From assembly GCA_020719945.1 (NCBI GenBank), contig DYPL01000008.1:1-59143 (forward strand): a stretch of DNA of 59,143 nucleotides. The letters are read 5' to 3'. Positions 20,686 to 28,609 of the stretch are shown piece after piece (within the stretch, counting starts at the first letter, position 1; each line of letters begins with the position of its first letter). Under the pieces are notes generated by a model. The model worked only from the letters and a program-made list of their open reading frames with translations. It did not search any database and had not been told where the DNA came from. The position numbers and the translations under genes were made by a program. This stretch comes from Turneriella parva. GTDB taxonomy: Bacteria > Spirochaetota > Leptospiria > Turneriellales > Turneriellaceae.

Positions 20686-21673
20686 ATTTTTCCCTCTCTT
20701 CTTGAATTCTTTTTGTTATTGGTATAGTTTTAAATACTGCTTTTTTTCCGTCGGCCCGTTTCCAGACTGCTTCTTCCAGCTGCTTCAGGTGCATGCTGTG
20801 TCCCACCAGAGATTCCAAAGAATTCTGGAGAAGAAAAAAACCTGGAGGTACCCGCTTCACGAGCATGCGGCCTTTTTCCAGTGAACGAACCGGTAAGGGC
20901 ATATTCCTTGGCTGTCGCAAAAGAACGGAAATCATGCTTGCCTTTCCAACATCGGCCTGTTCCAGAATATCGGCAAATTTTCCCGATGCAGCAATTTTTT
21001 GAAACCAGTTGCGGTAACCATGGCGCGTAGAGAGCCAGCGAAGATAGCCGCTTCCTTTTTCCCGGTAAAAGGCATGGCCATAGCTGGGAATCAGTTTTTT
21101 CAGCAATGCATCGTCGGGAACTATCTCATCCGGAAAAGAGATGGCCGAAAGAACGACAATCTCTCCCTCTCTGAAACGATACCAGAGCAGCAGGGCCCAA
21201 ACCAGGAGGGATAGGAATCCTGCTCCATACAAAACCACGGCTGGCACCGGCGGTCGTCCGGGAGGCGTTGTCTTAAACGTCCATTGTACAATTCCAGACT
21301 CAGCTCGATGGCAGATGAGACAGGAATCTGGTGAAGCGATGGAGCGTGTGTACACATTTGCCTCTGGATTTTGCACAGTTTCTTTTTTCCATGAAATCGT
21401 GACAGGTATGCAACCTTCCCTAGGAGCACTTTCTGCCGTACAGTTGAGCAGAGGTTTCCACAGAAATGGTTCCGCTGCCGAAAGTTTGACAGTTTCAATT
21501 TCCCTTTGTCTGGCTTCTATCCGCGCTTCAAAATCCTCCATCCGTTTTTCGCTGGCGAGAGACAATCCACCGAGCGCAAAGAACAAAGCTGGAACGACTA
21601 AAAGCAAAAGAAAACGTTTTGAATCCCAGCGCCCGGGAAACCCTGTGTCTGAATATTTTTCTGCCGGTTTCAC
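20654..21673 (-). CDS. Membrane protein with a single haem-c motif
   Basis: It is 339 residues with two predicted membrane segments at about 21–40 and 143–165. The ~100-residue loop between them contains one CxxCH (C118-L-I-C121-H122), the covalent haem-c attachment signature. It also has two further cysteines in NCTAESAPREGC. The remaining ~170 residues would lie in the cytoplasm and match no family I know. A membrane-anchored monohaem sensor or electron carrier is possible, but no cytochrome maturation gene is nearby and a single CxxCH can occur by chance. It overlaps the sigma-factor gene by 4 bases (ATGA) and topA by 32. Confidence 0.65.
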   Translation of the reverse strand: MKPAEKYSDTGFPGRWDSKRFLLLLVVPALFFALGGLSLASEKRMEDFEARIEARQREIETVKLSAAEPFLWKPLLNCTAESAPREGCIPVTISWKKETVQNPEANVYTRSIASPDSCLICHRAESGIVQWTFKTTPPGRPPVPAVVLYGAGFLSLLVWALLLWYRFREGEIVVLSAISFPDEIVPDDALLKKLIPSYGHAFYREKGSGYLRWLSTRHGYRNWFQKIAASGKFADILEQADVGKASMISVLLRQPRNMPLPVRSLEKGRMLVKRVPPGFFLLQNSLESLVGHSMHLKQLEEAVWKRADGKKAVFKTIPITKRIQEEREKYGRKEESTGG

Positions 21674-22635
21674 TGCTGGTTTAAGAATACTTCGAGTTCA
21701 AGCCGACTGCCATAGTGGCGCAGCTTCATAAGGGTTTTCTTCTCTATCTGACGAACTCTTTCCTTCGACAGTTGAAATTTCTTTCCTGCCTGTGTGAGCG
21801 AAAGTCTCGGCTTGCCATTTAGTCCAAAGCGGTACTCGATAATTTTGCGTTCGCTGACGGTCAGTTCCTGGAGAATGGTATTGATGACCTCTTTAAGAGC
21901 CGTCGACATAACGGTTTCTTCTGGCGATTCGTACTTTGTATCTTGAACCATGGATATCTGCGTATTTTCAGAGTCGCCCGAAAGGGGAGCATCCAGAGAT
22001 ACATAGTCCGATGAAATCTGTTTTAACCACTGGACATCTTCTTCTGACATTTCTAGACGTTCCGCAACCTGTGCGAGCGTTGGCTCGTGGCCAAGCTGCG
22101 CTTCTAGTGCTTTCTGGACTTTGTCTATTCTGGCGAGGTCAATGGTCCGATTCATGGGCAGGCGAATCATGGCGGCCTTCTGGTTGATTGCGAGAATAAT
22201 GGCCTGCCGAATCCACCAGACAGCATAGCTGATAAAGTGATATCCCAGGTTGGGGTCAAAGCGTTCAGCAGCCTTGATGAGGCCCATGTTTCCCTCATTG
22301 ATTAAATCGAGAAGAGCAATCCCGTATTTCTGGTATTTTTTGGCAACCTGTACGACAAAGCGAAGATTGGATACGACGAGTTTGTTTTTTGCGTCCTGAT
22401 CATTATGATCGGCTATTTTGCGCGCGAGAGAGTCTTCCTCGGCGCGCGTCAAAAGAGGAATTTTGTTAATTTCTTCCAGATACCACTGTATACTCGATTC
22501 CGTATACGGAGCTTTTTCGCGCGACGGAACAAATCTGGCAGTGACTTCATTTTCATATACAGAATCCGGCTCTGGCAAATCCAGTGAGTCTGCTGGAAAG
22601 TCCTCTTCCCTGTCTGTGTCCTTCTCGTCGCCCAT
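21670..22635 (-). CDS. Sigma-70 family RNA polymerase sigma factor, RpoD/RpoS-like
   Basis: At 321 residues it has region 1.2 (about 45–80), region 2 (84–155, with YAVWWIRQAI for −10 recognition), region 3 (163–240) and region 4 (249–312, ending in the helix-turn-helix LSKERVRQIEKK). It lacks the long region 1.1 and non-conserved insert of a primary sigma factor, so it is either a short RpoD or a group 2 (RpoS-like) sigma. A GAGGAAAC site precedes the ATG. It heads the 12.5-kb minus-strand gene run and is divergent from the regulator at 22763. Confidence 0.88.
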   Translation of the reverse strand: MGDEKDTDREEDFPADSLDLPEPDSVYENEVTARFVPSREKAPYTESSIQWYLEEINKIPLLTRAEEDSLARKIADHNDQDAKNKLVVSNLRFVVQVAKKYQKYGIALLDLINEGNMGLIKAAERFDPNLGYHFISYAVWWIRQAIILAINQKAAMIRLPMNRTIDLARIDKVQKALEAQLGHEPTLAQVAERLEMSEEDVQWLKQISSDYVSLDAPLSGDSENTQISMVQDTKYESPEETVMSTALKEVINTILQELTVSERKIIEYRFGLNGKPRLSLTQAGKKFQLSKERVRQIEKKTLMKLRHYGSRLELEVFLNQQ

Positions 22636-22762
22636 TAAATTCTGTTTCCTCTTTATTCAACCATGTACGGTCAACATCTTTTCCTTGCCAGAAAGGCTAA
22701 AAGCCTGATTCTTAGACGAATAGCAGGGCTTGACGTTCAGACTCTACTGTTCAGGCTGCCCC

Positions 22763-24244
22763 ATGGTAACCGTCCAGATGATCTGCCGGGATGGAAGCAG
22801 GAGAAAATTCCTTAAAGAAACATTCTCTACTTCTACTTCGGCTCATGTTTCCGTTTCGGGAAATTTTCGCGATGGATTGCGCAATCTGGAGAAGAGCCAT
22901 TCTGATATTCTCATCGTTTCAATGGATGCGGAACAGGCGTTAGATGACACGTGGATAAAAAGACTGCGCCGGGCTTATGATTTACAGCAGGGAGAGATTG
23001 CCTTGTTGCTTATTGTTGCGGATCCCACGGGACAAAGTGCCGAATTGCAGCAATTTCTTGATTCCAACGAAACCCTTATACAGGATATTCTGTTTATTCG
23101 GGATGAAATTCCCGGCTATCTCCTGCATCATTTTCTTCTAAAAAATATTCACTTTTTACGGTATAGAAGATCGAACACTATTTTAAGGCAGGTAAATGAA
23201 TCGCTTTCTGTCTCGCAACCACAGTCTGATAAGGCAGATACCGATATTCTTCCACCATTCAGCCTGAATCTGGGGTACAGTAACGCCATGCAGCGCACTA
23301 TCGATAAACTGAATCGCGCAGCAGATACTAAACTGCCCGTCTTTATTATTTACTCACAGGGAAATGATCCACAGAGGGCTGCTTACTATATTCACTCCAT
23401 GAGCGACAGGAATAAGGAAGCATTTAGAACCGTAAAATTGCGGCCCTCTAACCCAAGACTCCAAGAAGCCATTCTGTTCGGAAAACGAACAGAAAATCCT
23501 TCTTTTGATCCATCACCCGAATTTCTCTCTCTGCAGCAAAAAGGAACTCTCTACATTGAGAACCTCCAGAACCTGGATTGGGAACTTCAGGGAAGAATGA
23601 TGCAGTGGCTGCAGTGGCAGGAAATGAGACCCGACAATGATAAACCTGCCGTAATTTTTTCCGTGCCGGAAAATGTTCAGGCCTATGTCCACGAAGGTAC
23701 CCTTCGCCAGGAACTGTATTACCGAATCCATTCTTTTCCTGTAAGAATCCCACCCCTATCTGAACGGTCCGAGGATATTATTTTCCTGATTGATCAATAC
23801 GCGCAGTGGATTTCGCGCAAACTGGGGCGCGAAATGGTTCTCTCAGCCTTTTTAAAAGAAGGTCTTTCCAGAAAGGCCTGGCCTGGCAACGAGAAAGAAC
23901 TGTTCCGATTTCTTTACCGACTTATCACGACGGCAGAAAGCAACCGCATTGATATTTTTCATCTGGCGGGTTTTATTCCGGAAATTGCCAGAGAAATCGC
24001 AGCAGAAGAAAAATCCCCCGGGTATACCAATCCCCCTGCGAGAGAACAGGGAAATCTGTTCTCTCCACCACCCAAAGCCCTTACTCTGGAAGATGTCGAG
24101 AAAGAACATATTCTGCGGGTGTTTGAAGAAAGCCGCCGCAATATATCGCAAACGGCCCGCCTGCTCAATATTTCCAGAAAAACTCTCTACGAAAAAATCC
24201 GTAAGTATTTACCGGATGAATTGCCGGGAAAAAGTGCCGGATGA
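22763..24244 (+). CDS. Degenerate NtrC-family (sigma-54 activator-like) regulator
   Basis: The 493-residue protein has the layout of a sigma-54 activator: receiver-like domain (about 1–120), AAA+-like domain (about 165–400) and a Fis-type helix-turn-helix (444–484, NISQTARLLNISRKTLYEKI). The ATPase signatures are lost. The Walker A position reads YSQGNDPQ instead of GxxGxGKE, the GAFTGA loop that contacts sigma-54 is missing, and Walker B reads GTLYIENL instead of GTLFLDEI. The LRQELYYRI arginines and WPGN are kept. It therefore probably binds DNA without remodelling sigma-54. Start: ATG 22763 fits the receiver strand; a TTG at 22730 is also possible, and neither has a good ribosome-binding site. 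It overlaps rsmD by 4 bases. Confidence 0.8.
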   Translation: MVTVQMICRDGSRRKFLKETFSTSTSAHVSVSGNFRDGLRNLEKSHSDILIVSMDAEQALDDTWIKRLRRAYDLQQGEIALLLIVADPTGQSAELQQFLDSNETLIQDILFIRDEIPGYLLHHFLLKNIHFLRYRRSNTILRQVNESLSVSQPQSDKADTDILPPFSLNLGYSNAMQRTIDKLNRAADTKLPVFIIYSQGNDPQRAAYYIHSMSDRNKEAFRTVKLRPSNPRLQEAILFGKRTENPSFDPSPEFLSLQQKGTLYIENLQNLDWELQGRMMQWLQWQEMRPDNDKPAVIFSVPENVQAYVHEGTLRQELYYRIHSFPVRIPPLSERSEDIIFLIDQYAQWISRKLGREMVLSAFLKEGLSRKAWPGNEKELFRFLYRLITTAESNRIDIFHLAGFIPEIAREIAAEEKSPGYTNPPAREQGNLFSPPPKALTLEDVEKEHILRVFEESRRNISQTARLLNISRKTLYEKIRKYLPDELPGKSAG

Positions 24245-24882
24245 AAGCATTTCTCAAAGTCATGCGGGGTTCCCTGAAGAATAAGGTTATTCCCCTGCCC
24301 CCGGCACACCATGGACACCAGAATGCGACGCCGTCGAAAATGAAGGAGGCAGCATTTCAAATTATTGAAAATCATATTATTCATCCGGAAAAGTCCGTAT
24401 TCTTGGATCTGTTTTCCGGATCAGGCCAAATGGGGATGGAAGCTATCAGCCAGGGATTTCTAAAAACCTGGTTTTCTGAAATGGAAAGTAATCGTATTAC
24501 TGACATTCGCTCCTGGCTGATAAAGCACTCTGTCACAGAGAAAGGTCTCGTGATGCGCTCCAATTCCTTTAAAAAACTCCTTACTTTTGTTAGTCAACCG
24601 CCAGAACTTACTCCACCCGCATCTACTCTCGATTTAATCATTTTTGCGGATCCTCCTTATCTCGAATCGGCTCCACTGAAACCTGCCTTTACTCTCACGG
24701 ATTCTCTGGTAAAACTGTCGTCTTTGGGCTGGAATTCTGCGCTGCTCATGGTGCAGGTTCCCAATTCCCGCCGCAGAGAAATTTCCCGTGCAGACTTTGA
24801 ACGTTTGTCTACTCATTTTACCAGAGTATATGATTATGGGAAAAATTCACTGCTCGTGAGGGAACTCTCTCCTAAAATATAG
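24241..24882 (+). CDS. rsmD: 16S rRNA (guanine966-N2)-methyltransferase RsmD
   Basis: The 213-residue class I methyltransferase has the SAM-binding motif FLDLFSGSGQMGMEA (residues 54–68) and the catalytic DPPY at 137–140. The N-terminal RGSLKNKVIPLPP … TPSKMKEAAF is the family's rRNA-binding opening. The ATG overlaps the preceding regulator stop (ATGA). Confidence 0.9.
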   Translation: MKAFLKVMRGSLKNKVIPLPPAHHGHQNATPSKMKEAAFQIIENHIIHPEKSVFLDLFSGSGQMGMEAISQGFLKTWFSEMESNRITDIRSWLIKHSVTEKGLVMRSNSFKKLLTFVSQPPELTPPASTLDLIIFADPPYLESAPLKPAFTLTDSLVKLSSLGWNSALLMVQVPNSRRREISRADFERLSTHFTRVYDYGKNSLLVRELSPKI

Positions 24883-24935: not shown

Positions 24936-26699
24936 ATGAAAAAAAACAATATTCTCCTTATTTTGGCTCTTTGGCTTCCTTCCGCCGTTTTCTCTTTTTC
25001 ACCAGAGAATTATGCTTCCGCTGAAGATACATTCTACATTGAAGTAGAATCTTCTACCAAAGCAACGAACTATCTCAAAGACTTTCTCCTTGGATTGCTT
25101 GGTCCGTCTTCTGAAACCATCGTTGCCTCTGTTGCTGAACAGGCAAAAGAGAGAACTGGAGTGAATCCTCTTTCTTCGAAAGATCTTCTGACCATCGGCT
25201 TTGATCCCGCGAGTAAAATGAGCGTAACGGGAAACTTTGTTGTCAATCCCGAAGGACTTCTGGAAACGAAATACGTTCGCATCTATTTTCCTGCCAAAAA
25301 CAGTGACAAACTTTATGCATACATGTTGCAGCGTGCCAAAATGCCAGATGAAGCGGGGACCGTGCCCGCTATAACGGAGCATATTAAAGGACGACTCTTT
25401 GAAATTCCCGGAGAAACCCCCCTCTTCGTAATTAAAGGCAGCGATTTTATTGCTGCTTCTAATTCCAGACTGGGAGCTGTGTCCGCTGTAGAAATGAGCA
25501 AAAACAAAATTACAGATGCCGAGTGGTATGTGCAGGGAAAAAAAGAATTTTCTTCTGTAAAAGCGGTAGCATGGTTCTACATCAATCCCACGCAGTATAT
25601 GAATGCATTTTCTGCCTTCTCGGGAAGTCTTGGAAGCACGGAAACTCCCCGTGAGCTTTCGTTTTCTTCTGCCCTTATTCGCAAAATGCAGGCTGAGGTA
25701 GAGGAAAATATTGTCACTGCCGGTGGCTATTTTACGTTGAATAAATCGGGCATTGTCGGGCACTTTGTAGAAAAATACAAAAACGGATATCTTCAGTCTT
25801 CTGAAACCGCTCTCCACAAACTGATCAATCCTGACGCACCCAATTTATCTCTGGATTCTCATCCTGGCAGCCCTTTGCTGTACTTTATGGTAAAACTCAA
25901 CTTTGCCGGGTATCTGCAGTTTATCGAAGAATCGGTTCCAGAATTTAAGAAAGAGATGGAACGCACCTCGGAAGAAATAGCAAAAGAAGCAGGGCTTGAT
26001 TTGCGCAAAGATCTTCTCGCTCCCATCCACGGAAATTTTTCCATGACGGTTGCGGACATTCCTCCGGAAAAGGATCTCCAGAATCCTAATGCTTGGAATG
26101 GATTCTTCTCCATGGGGATAGCCAAAGGCAGCTCTAAAAATTATGTCATGCTTATCGAAAAAATCATGGCAGAAGAAAATGCCAAGCCAGAAGACAATAG
26201 AGACTTCTCCATAAAGAAAGGCAAGCAGGGAAAACACACTCTGTTTACAATAACATTGCGCGAAAAACAGCAACAGCTTAAATCCGAAGAAGAACTTGCA
26301 AACGAAGAACTCGACGGATTGAGCATGGATGAGGAATCTGCAACAGAAGAAGAATCAGAAGAACCCGCTCCTGTCGTCAAAGAAACCTTTGCGTATATCA
26401 TCATTACGGATACGGAAATCATAGGAACAACAAATCCGGCAGCTTTTGCCAAGATAGAAAAATCAAAGGAATCAACGCTCGCTGTCCGCAATTTTCCAAA
26501 ATCTGGCAAGTACTATACGGGAGGCATTATTGATATAGCTACCGTAGTTGCGTATGCAAAAACAAGTTCTTTCTCCATGTTTGTTGCACAGTATCTGCAA
26601 ATGGTTGAGAGAATCGATAAACTTACCGGTTATGCCAAAATTGATGGCGACAATTCCATCAGCAGATTTGAATTGCGCTTAAAACCCACTAAGAAGTAA
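24936..26699 (+). CDS. Exported protein of unknown function
   Basis: It is 587 residues with a signal peptide (KKNNILLILALWLPSAVFS). The body alternates helices and strands and has no cysteines that I noticed. A strongly acidic, low-complexity stretch lies at about 452–480 (EEELANEELDGLSMDEE…). It loosely recalls DUF3352-type secreted proteins, but I cannot confirm this. AGGAACAGG precedes the ATG. Its stop overlaps the start of the SpoIIE-type phosphatase gene by one base (TAATG), so the two are likely co-translated. Confidence 0.65.
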   Translation: MKKNNILLILALWLPSAVFSFSPENYASAEDTFYIEVESSTKATNYLKDFLLGLLGPSSETIVASVAEQAKERTGVNPLSSKDLLTIGFDPASKMSVTGNFVVNPEGLLETKYVRIYFPAKNSDKLYAYMLQRAKMPDEAGTVPAITEHIKGRLFEIPGETPLFVIKGSDFIAASNSRLGAVSAVEMSKNKITDAEWYVQGKKEFSSVKAVAWFYINPTQYMNAFSAFSGSLGSTETPRELSFSSALIRKMQAEVEENIVTAGGYFTLNKSGIVGHFVEKYKNGYLQSSETALHKLINPDAPNLSLDSHPGSPLLYFMVKLNFAGYLQFIEESVPEFKKEMERTSEEIAKEAGLDLRKDLLAPIHGNFSMTVADIPPEKDLQNPNAWNGFFSMGIAKGSSKNYVMLIEKIMAEENAKPEDNRDFSIKKGKQGKHTLFTITLREKQQQLKSEEELANEELDGLSMDEESATEEESEEPAPVVKETFAYIIITDTEIIGTTNPAAFAKIEKSKESTLAVRNFPKSGKYYTGGIIDIATVVAYAKTSSFSMFVAQYLQMVERIDKLTGYAKIDGDNSISRFELRLKPTKK

Positions 26700-28609
26700 T
26701 GTCTTGTCTCGTTCATAGAAAACGGGTAAAACTTTTTTCTGACCTTGCCATGCATGGCGGGGTCAGTTTTGTCTCCGAATTAAAATCCCTGTCCCCTCTC
26801 TGGAATGGGGATGACTGGATTTCTCTTTCGGAAGAAAGGCGGGGCCTCCAGGGATTTCTGCGGCACCCAGAATTTGCTACATGGATGCGCGAAGCGGGAC
26901 GCGAGGCCATGGCTCTTGCGATGTCTGCTTTTTCGGCTACGCCTTCCGAAATGGTTACTTTTCGGGAGTTGTTTTACAAAACTCCTGCTTATCTTCATCT
27001 ATCCATGACCTATCTGACCGTGTATCCGCAAACATCGGACAACGGAAAGAAATACCAGATCACTCTGCGGGGGCTGGAAGTTTGTCAGCCGGATGAAACG
27101 GATCTTTTTTTTATTCTGGGCCATCTCGATTATCTTCTCCATTTTTTTCAGTTGAAAAGATCTGTCGTCGCAGTAAAAAAAGTTCCTTTTGAACCATCGG
27201 AAACTCTGCTCTCTCAGAATCCCGATATTAAACAGTCGAGAAGTAAAATTACGATAACCCTGGAAATAAAGGAAGATCAGACAGAAGAATTTTCGGCAGA
27301 CCAGAAAATCAAGGCATACGATGCTTACGTGCATTCTGTCCTGGAAAAAACGCAGGAGCTGATTCGGGACAAAAGAGATCTCCATACAGCCATTGAATAT
27401 CTCAATGTTGCCAATGAACAGCTGGAACGCGAGCTGAGAGCCAATAAAAAGGAACTCATGCTTGCCCGGAATATACAGAAGGGATTTGTTCCCCCCCGCA
27501 TTCCAGACTGGCGCGGACTACAGTTCTGGGTTAAGTTTTTTCCCCTTACCGAGGTGAGTGGCGATTTTTATGACTACATTCCATTAGGTGGCCACAAGCT
27601 TGGTCTCGTTGTTTCGGATGCTTCTGGTCATGGCGTACCCGCTGCACTCATGACCGCAATCGGAAAACTGAGTTTTCGCAATCATAGATTAGATTCACCC
27701 GGCGAAATTTTTCGCAAGGTCAACCTTGATCTACTGCAATATGTTAAACGTGAAAGTTATTTGACTTCTTTTTACATGGTGATAGATTCTGATTATAATA
27801 TTCTCTACAGCAGTGCGGCTGCTCCTCCCCCAATAATTTTACGGTACAAAACAGGAACTACGGAAGAACTTCTCTCGCGTGGAACTCTGCTCGGAATGTT
27901 TCCGGATGCCGGTTCTCTGTTAAAAGACAGCAGCACGGCACTGGAGCCTGGAGATAAAATATTTATCTTTACCGATGGCTTCATCGAATCCATTAACACA
28001 AACGATGAACCATTCGGAATGGAAAGACTGCACGAAGCCATTGCCTCTACACGCTATATGGCGGTTCAGGAAGCATCCGAGCATGTGATGTCTGTGTACA
28101 ATCGCTTCATTCTTGGAACGGATCCGCGCGACGATGTCACAGTGATCACGGTGATGCTTAGCCAGCATACAGAAAGATTCAATCAACTCGTCTCCGATGC
28201 CCGCACGGCACAGCACGATAAAGATCTGGATACCGCATCTTCTCTGCTTGCCGAGGCTATTTCAATTTTTCCCAGACACCCCAATACGCTCTATCTGTAC
28301 GGAAAAGTGCTTGCCCAGAATGGAGAATATCCCCGAGCTATGGAAATACTACAGCATTACAACACCCTGCAACCATACAATGCTGACAGTTATACAATCC
28401 GCGCCTATTGCAGTTACAGATCAGGGTTACCAGAACTTGCGCGCGATGAACTGAAGCGTTCTCTTTCCCTGCGGACAGAAAACCCCATAGCCCTCTATAA
28501 TCTGATTGTGATCAGCAGAAAACTTGGATTTGAGGAAGAGGCAACGGAATACCTGCGGCAACTTAAAAAAATCCGCCCGAACTGGAAAAAAATTCAGTTT
28601 CTGTTTTAG
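26699..28609 (+). CDS. SpoIIE/RsbU-type PP2C phosphatase with C-terminal TPRs
   Basis: The 636-residue protein has an unassigned N-terminal domain (about 1–190), a coiled coil (about 210–260), a SpoIIE/RsbU phosphatase domain (about 258–485) and three or four TPR units (490–636). The metal-binding aspartates are in place: GDFYDY, VVSDASGHGVPAAL, FTDGFIES and RDDVTVITVML. Such enzymes usually dephosphorylate STAS anti-anti-sigma proteins in partner-switching cascades. No STAS or anti-sigma kinase gene is adjacent. The N-terminal part may be the sensor. Cytoplasmic. Confidence 0.88.
   Translation: MSCLVHRKRVKLFSDLAMHGGVSFVSELKSLSPLWNGDDWISLSEERRGLQGFLRHPEFATWMREAGREAMALAMSAFSATPSEMVTFRELFYKTPAYLHLSMTYLTVYPQTSDNGKKYQITLRGLEVCQPDETDLFFILGHLDYLLHFFQLKRSVVAVKKVPFEPSETLLSQNPDIKQSRSKITITLEIKEDQTEEFSADQKIKAYDAYVHSVLEKTQELIRDKRDLHTAIEYLNVANEQLERELRANKKELMLARNIQKGFVPPRIPDWRGLQFWVKFFPLTEVSGDFYDYIPLGGHKLGLVVSDASGHGVPAALMTAIGKLSFRNHRLDSPGEIFRKVNLDLLQYVKRESYLTSFYMVIDSDYNILYSSAAAPPPIILRYKTGTTEELLSRGTLLGMFPDAGSLLKDSSTALEPGDKIFIFTDGFIESINTNDEPFGMERLHEAIASTRYMAVQEASEHVMSVYNRFILGTDPRDDVTVITVMLSQHTERFNQLVSDARTAQHDKDLDTASSLLAEAISIFPRHPNTLYLYGKVLAQNGEYPRAMEILQHYNTLQPYNADSYTIRAYCSYRSGLPELARDELKRSLSLRTENPIALYNLIVISRKLGFEEEATEYLRQLKKIRPNWKKIQFLF

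Follow-up and report, generated by a model that had tools for sequence, protein, structure and literature searches.

The window analysed here (contig DYPL01000008.1, 59,143 nucleotides) encodes a regulator that we regard, with a probability of roughly two in three, as a repurposed NtrC-type enhancer-binding protein (bEBP): a sigma-54-independent DNA-binding protein that carries a dead AAA+ scaffold and is co-expressed with the methyltransferase RsmD. Alignment of its orthologues shows that all nucleotide-handling residues and the GAFTGA loop have been lost across the whole clade, and comparison of the loci shows that the regulator and rsmD form a conserved two-gene unit. The family is a clade-wide natural experiment in the use of an NtrC-type AAA+ domain after loss of ATP binding, hydrolysis and sigma-54 contact, and supplies a set of dead homologues. 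The original prediction had offered a repressor, an anti-activator and a sigma-70 regulator as possible roles; among these, sequence comparison favours a plain DNA-binding regulator. It had missed the strongest context, namely that rsmD invariably follows downstream and that the family is confined to one spirochaete order. The features are listed in Table 1.

Table 1. Features of the regulator-rsmD unit (positions in the window)
Feature	Position	Strand	Basis
TTGACG box, 27 nt upstream of the start codon; may be the -35 element for regulator and rsmD	22730..22735	+	Recurs in relatives; putative role
NtrC-type regulator, predicted ATPase-dead, 493 aa	22763..24244, stop codon included	+	ORF, Pfam, orthologues
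Pseudo-receiver domain, residues 1-145, (beta-alpha)5 and long last helix	22763..23197	+	AlphaFold secondary structure
Degenerate AAA+ core, residues 168-332	23264..23758	+	Sigma54_activat 1.3e-16; Foldseek to NtrX, NtrC1, FleQ, VpsR
Former Walker A, YSQGNDPQ, residues 197-204	23351..23374	+	Aligns on GESGTGKE
Site of deleted L1/GAFTGA loop, residues 241-250	23483..23512	+	Alignment block
Former Walker B, GTLYIENL, residues 261-268	23543..23566	+	Aligns on GTLFLDEI
AAA+ lid, residues 334-406; Lys378 replaces sensor II Arg	23762..23980	+	AAA_lid_14 3.8e-10
Linker motif R(E)...LF, residues 427-433, conserved	24041..24061	+	R427, L432, F433 invariant 14/14
Fis-type HTH, residues 441-482, best conserved part	24083..24208	+	HTH_8 in 14/14 members; dN/dS 0.045
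rsmD, putative 16S rRNA m2G966 methyltransferase; overlaps regulator by ATGA; FLDLFSGSGQMG and IFADPPY intact	24241..24882	+	Adjacency; TIGR00095

Domain architecture and predicted fold

The reading frame of the regulator is uninterrupted, and coding on the opposite strand was rejected, because the reverse-complement frame that was examined is riddled with stops. Three Pfam families of NtrC-type proteins match above cut-off: Sigma54_activat (PF00158, residues 171-327), AAA_lid_14 (PF25601) and HTH_8/Fis (PF02954, 3.3e-13). This homology and the Foldseek matches bear out the claim of descent from a true activator, and the YYRI and WPGN remnants that had suggested it are present. The receiver-like, AAA+-like and Fis-HTH parts read from the DNA were likewise recovered, the AAA+ core, lid and HTH by Pfam and the receiver-like part by the (beta-alpha)5 fold of the AlphaFold model. 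The model supports describing the N-terminal part more exactly as a pseudo-receiver. Response_reg has no Pfam match above cut-off in the window regulator and matches only weakly in 2 of the 14 family members. Read by eye, the sequence of this part lacks the acidic pair of a phosphorylatable response regulator and has Ser53 at the phospho-Asp site, where most relatives carry Asp.

The AlphaFold2 model, for which nine orthologues served as input (mean pLDDT 75.9, pTM 0.60), runs from the (beta-alpha)5 fold through a long helix, the AAA+ core and the lid to the HTH, which follows a low-confidence linker; the arrangement of the domains is uncertain, and the linker (pLDDT below 50 at residues 415-438) is probably flexible. 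The R(E)...LF motif within it, in the window and in orthologues, is a possible protein-interaction motif. The three-domain fold is predicted to be retained, and a Turneriella-type member from the most diverged branch has a similar predicted layout (pLDDT 77.2, pTM 0.46). Foldseek matched the model to NtrX, NtrC1, VpsR, FleQ and LuxO, and the AAA+ core reached target-normalised TM-scores of up to 0.85 against single domains. The best matches, NtrX (PDB 5m7n/5m7p) and NtrC1 (1ny5), have the same receiver-AAA+-HTH layout; they bind nucleotides, whereas the window regulator lacks the motifs.

Loss of the ATPase and sigma-54 motifs across one order

The strings YSQGNDPQ and GTLYIENL stand where the original prediction had read them, and GAFTGA is gone, as it had stated: alignment to canonical NtrC-type proteins revealed no GAFTGA-like sequence after LFG (residues 238-240). 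The alternative that intact motifs lie elsewhere in the protein fell away, since a scan of the whole chain found no G-x4-GK, GAFTGA-like or GT[LIV]F[LI]DE string. The regulator has none of the marks of a functional sigma-54 activator (bEBP or EBP54), that is, Walker A GxxxxGK[ED], the L1 loop GAFTGA and Walker B hhhhDE, and its sensor I and sensor II residues are missing as well.

The same holds for the family. Against 47 canonical proteins, which were chosen for Walker A and GAFTGA and serve as a reference rather than an unbiased census, the family has lost the Walker A Lys (47/47 canonical, 0/14 family) and second Gly (47 versus 0), and the Walker B Asp (47/47 versus 1/14) and Glu (47/47 versus 0/14). 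At positions assigned with PspF and NtrC1 as guides, the sensor I Asn is found in 44/47 canonical proteins and 2/14 family members, the second R-finger Arg in 47/47 and 4/14, and the sensor II Arg in 47/47 and 2/14. GAFTGA is absent from all 15 members examined; the L1 loop of every member is shortened or has unrelated sequence in its place, and the Turneriella-type members lack even the GTLF lead-in to Walker B. Such identical losses in all 15 members, set against near-universal retention in the canonical bEBPs of the phylum, point to more than chance. Three other residues are fixed in the family (14/14 each): the first R-finger Arg315, in the segment FR-x-[DE]-L; Trp273, which is not among the six commonest residues at its position in the controls; and Gln316, found in 1/47 controls. 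Because Arg315 is invariant although ATP binding looks lost, there is a hint that some inter-subunit ring contact survives.

Remodelling of the sigma-54 holoenzyme, as known, requires ATP hydrolysis and GAFTGA, and the regulator therefore cannot remodel it by this mechanism. The automatic label "sigma-54-dependent regulator" is wrong for genes of this family.

The family consists of 14 full-length members, the window regulator included, and two partial ones (one truncated by a contig end, the other a C-terminal fragment alone at a contig edge), distributed over three families of one Turneriella-like order. Full-length orthologues come from the same genus (93% identity), from other genera of the window's family and from two further families within the order (25-31% identity). 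A profile search of 296 genomes of the phylum gave 626-685 bits for family members, followed by canonical bEBPs at 257 bits and below. The maximum-likelihood tree of the 14 members and the 47 canonical proteins has one branch that splits the two sets, with a support of 100/100, so that one origin suffices for the degenerate family. An earlier impression that Turneriella-type genomes (g5) lack the regulator was wrong; their more diverged copy, upstream of rsmD, was first found by synteny. A genome of a fourth family (G013, 80% complete) gave no family match.

The spirochaete flagellar sheath family FlaA is matched three times in the source genome (2.4 Mb, 146 contigs) and not once in the 14 control genomes, and we infer that the window comes from Spirochaetota, from a Turneriella-like order; in the NCBI taxonomy, Turneriella belongs to Leptospiria. 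A sister genome (L008, DYKF01000001.1) is publicly titled "Caldithrix sp." but looks like a Turneriella-like spirochaete, and the title is probably a taxonomic mislabel because the genome has the FlaA sheath genes that the controls lack.

The motif loss is clade-wide and old, and the gene is maintained under purifying selection. For the window gene compared with its 93% orthologue, dN/dS comes to 0.172 overall, 0.19 in the AAA+ domain, 0.094 in the lid and lowest in the HTH (Table 1), from small counts of 32 nonsynonymous and 50 synonymous changes; in every deeper pair, the HTH is again the most conserved domain. Since the overall value falls within the range of the neighbouring genes (0.06 to 0.20), the regulator is not a pseudogene. 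Divergence outside the HTH is fast, with the 25-31% identity within the order, and might suggest a decaying pseudogene or an assembly artefact. We reject this reading, which has almost no likelihood, on the conserved clade and the dN/dS: the ORF is open in all genomes, the synteny is long-standing, and the family-specific residues W273 and Q316 are invariant. The alternative of functional relatives with a recent pseudogene in the window is excluded by the same data. The original prediction had proposed that conserved motif loss with an intact HTH in related genomes would support a repurposed regulator, and this is what the family presents, with HTH_8 in 14/14 members and motif loss in 15/15.

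Comparison with other NtrC-type regulators

Loss of GAFTGA alone is already known. A survey found about 110 homologues with minor GAFTGA deviations and named TyrR, DhaR, HupR, VpsR and YplP as defective (PMC3162934), and bEBPs without GAFTGA reportedly act on sigma-70 promoters, in some cases with no ATP hydrolysis (PMC10274813). The window regulator, with GAFTGA lost and the HTH intact, appears from its sequence to fall in this class, represented by VpsR, TyrR and Caulobacter NtrC. Like the NtrC proteins of Caulobacter and Rhodobacter, VpsR, TyrR, HupR and DhaR, it combines the NtrC-type layout with a deleted or altered L1/GAFTGA and a retained HTH (PMC10274813, PMC3162934), and, as for the GAFTGA-deficient bEBPs, sigma-54 activation is not expected of it. 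Unlike them, the window family has also lost Walker A, Walker B, sensor I, sensor II and the second R-finger, and this throughout the order. For TyrR, Walker A/B motifs have been described (PMC6375630), and the Caulobacter and Rhodobacter NtrC proteins depend on a phosphorylatable receiver Asp (PMC10274813). In the open-access literature searched, we found nothing close to bEBPs that lack Walker A as well, nor any order-wide loss of all nucleotide-handling residues combined with an invariant rsmD partner.

VpsR (PDB 7v2b), reported as a sigma-70 regulator, is among the closest folds and shares the receiver-like, AAA+ and Fis HTH parts. The two proteins are 19% identical, the rsmD unit is a feature of the window regulator, and the likeness is one of fold, nothing in the analysis having pointed to c-di-GMP or phosphate sensing by the window regulator. 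VpsR is cited as sensing both and as acting on sigma-70 promoters (PMC10274813). Since the structural matches include VpsR and FleQ, the former nucleotide pocket might bind another small molecule, such as c-di-GMP, that controls DNA binding as in these proteins. We consider such a ligand sensor very improbable, because the pocket residues vary even within the family, which argues against one conserved ligand there.

The source genome retains rpoN and one canonical bEBP (722 aa, with two N-terminal GAF-like domains and intact motifs), so sigma-54 work can be done elsewhere. With both present, the regulator might have an indirect role in sigma-54 control. As an anti-activator, the dead subunit would join the hexamers of the single canonical bEBP or compete for its DNA sites, damping sigma-54 transcription. 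We think this unlikely. The coexistence of one canonical and one degenerate copy in most members of the order and the invariant Arg315 agree with it, but neither sensor II nor the second R-finger Arg has been kept, the two proteins differ in their N-terminal domains and are not sisters in the tree, and the regulator shares no gene context with sigma-54 genes.

The regulator-rsmD unit and its surroundings

The next gene after the regulator is rsmD in 13/13 checkable loci, including the window; the two genes overlap by 4 nt in eight of them and are 0-25 nt apart in the other five. The product of the window gene matches TIGR00095 at 1.2e-13, below the curated cut-off; across these loci, RsmD has the DPPY motif in 13/13 and the Gly-rich motif I in 10/13 by the pattern used. 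The genes upstream of the regulator vary between genomes, and no neighbour other than rsmD is invariant. A divergent sigma-70-family gene and topA-xerC-hslVU stand upstream in several genera of the window's family, and Turneriella-type genomes have aroE-like and shikimate-kinase-like genes (named from sequence). In three genomes outside the order (L125-L127, sister order), rsmD sits among different genes, with no family member close by. Co-expression of the regulator with RsmD is the best-supported reading of this arrangement; adjacency of the two genes is no proof that they are functionally linked. Through this unit, modification of 16S rRNA in spirochaetes may be tied to a Fis-type regulator, a connection that can be tested.

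That rsmD is the sole invariant neighbour, that the 4-nt overlaps suggest translational coupling and that the R..LF linker motif is conserved could also mean that the regulator acts chiefly in support of RsmD or of ribosome assembly, as a protein partner or through RNA binding, for instance, with an HTH that binds RNA or is only locally autoregulatory. This appears quite unlikely: the recognition helix of the HTH is still the typical [IS]RKTLY, and rsmD of the sister order has no such neighbour.

In the repurposed DNA-binding regulator that we favour, the protein would no longer bind or hydrolyse ATP or contact sigma-54, judging the pocket from the alignment. The pseudo-receiver and dead AAA+ domain would serve as a dimer or oligomer scaffold, possibly for a ligand or protein partner, and the HTH would bind DNA, probably including the promoter of the regulator-rsmD unit. 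As a repressor or architectural factor, the regulator may thereby control transcription of the ordinary sigma-70 type. By analogy with what dusB-fis may achieve for Fis, co-expression with RsmD would make its abundance follow ribosome production.

Fis is a small protein (about 98 aa) whose HTH stands alone. The window regulator does not fit this nucleoid-associated, short stand-alone HTH dimer, as it has 493 aa and two further folded domains. The dusB-fis operon joins an RNA-modification gene to a Fis-type protein and is autorepressed by Fis (PMC7482072). In both systems, an NtrC-related Fis HTH protein accompanies an RNA-modification gene, with which it is co-transcribed in dusB-fis; the parallel is one of analogy, not operon homology, since the window unit has rsmD instead of dusB, the gene order is reversed, and the receiver and AAA+ domains remain. 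An origin of Fis from NtrC is the claim in the title of Morett and Bork 1998, cited in PMC7482072. Rather speculatively, a "Fis-like" protein might here have arisen from the NtrC family for a second time, independently of Fis: an NtrC-type ATPase would have become a DNA-binding factor with a global or ribosome-linked role, fixed with rsmD and with its completely dead AAA+ body still attached.

The TTGACG box lies exactly 27 nt upstream of the regulator in six loci of three families and 30-32 nt upstream in three others, and no Shine-Dalgarno sequence was seen before the regulator start; the fixed distance and this absence suggest a leaderless regulator-rsmD transcript. A TTG start at 22730 (504 aa) is not favoured, because the same box stands upstream in relatives where stops close that frame. 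Upstream of several window genes (1862, 8282, 22763), a TTGAC(G/A) box stands at about 27-30 nt from the start codon and a Shine-Dalgarno sequence is missing, which suggests that leaderless transcripts may occur in this lineage. The region upstream of aspS reads TTGACG-N16-TATACT-N7-ATG.

The sigma-70 family gene of the window (21670-22635, minus strand) is divergent from the regulator. It adjoins it in several genera of the window's family, at 68-78% identity, and does not do so in the other families of the order. Further downstream, 26699-28609 (plus strand) encodes a single 636-aa protein with a SpoIIE-like PP2C phosphatase domain and C-terminal TPR-like repeats (named by eye); the sister species has a 92% identical version, and the one in L059 is 48% identical.
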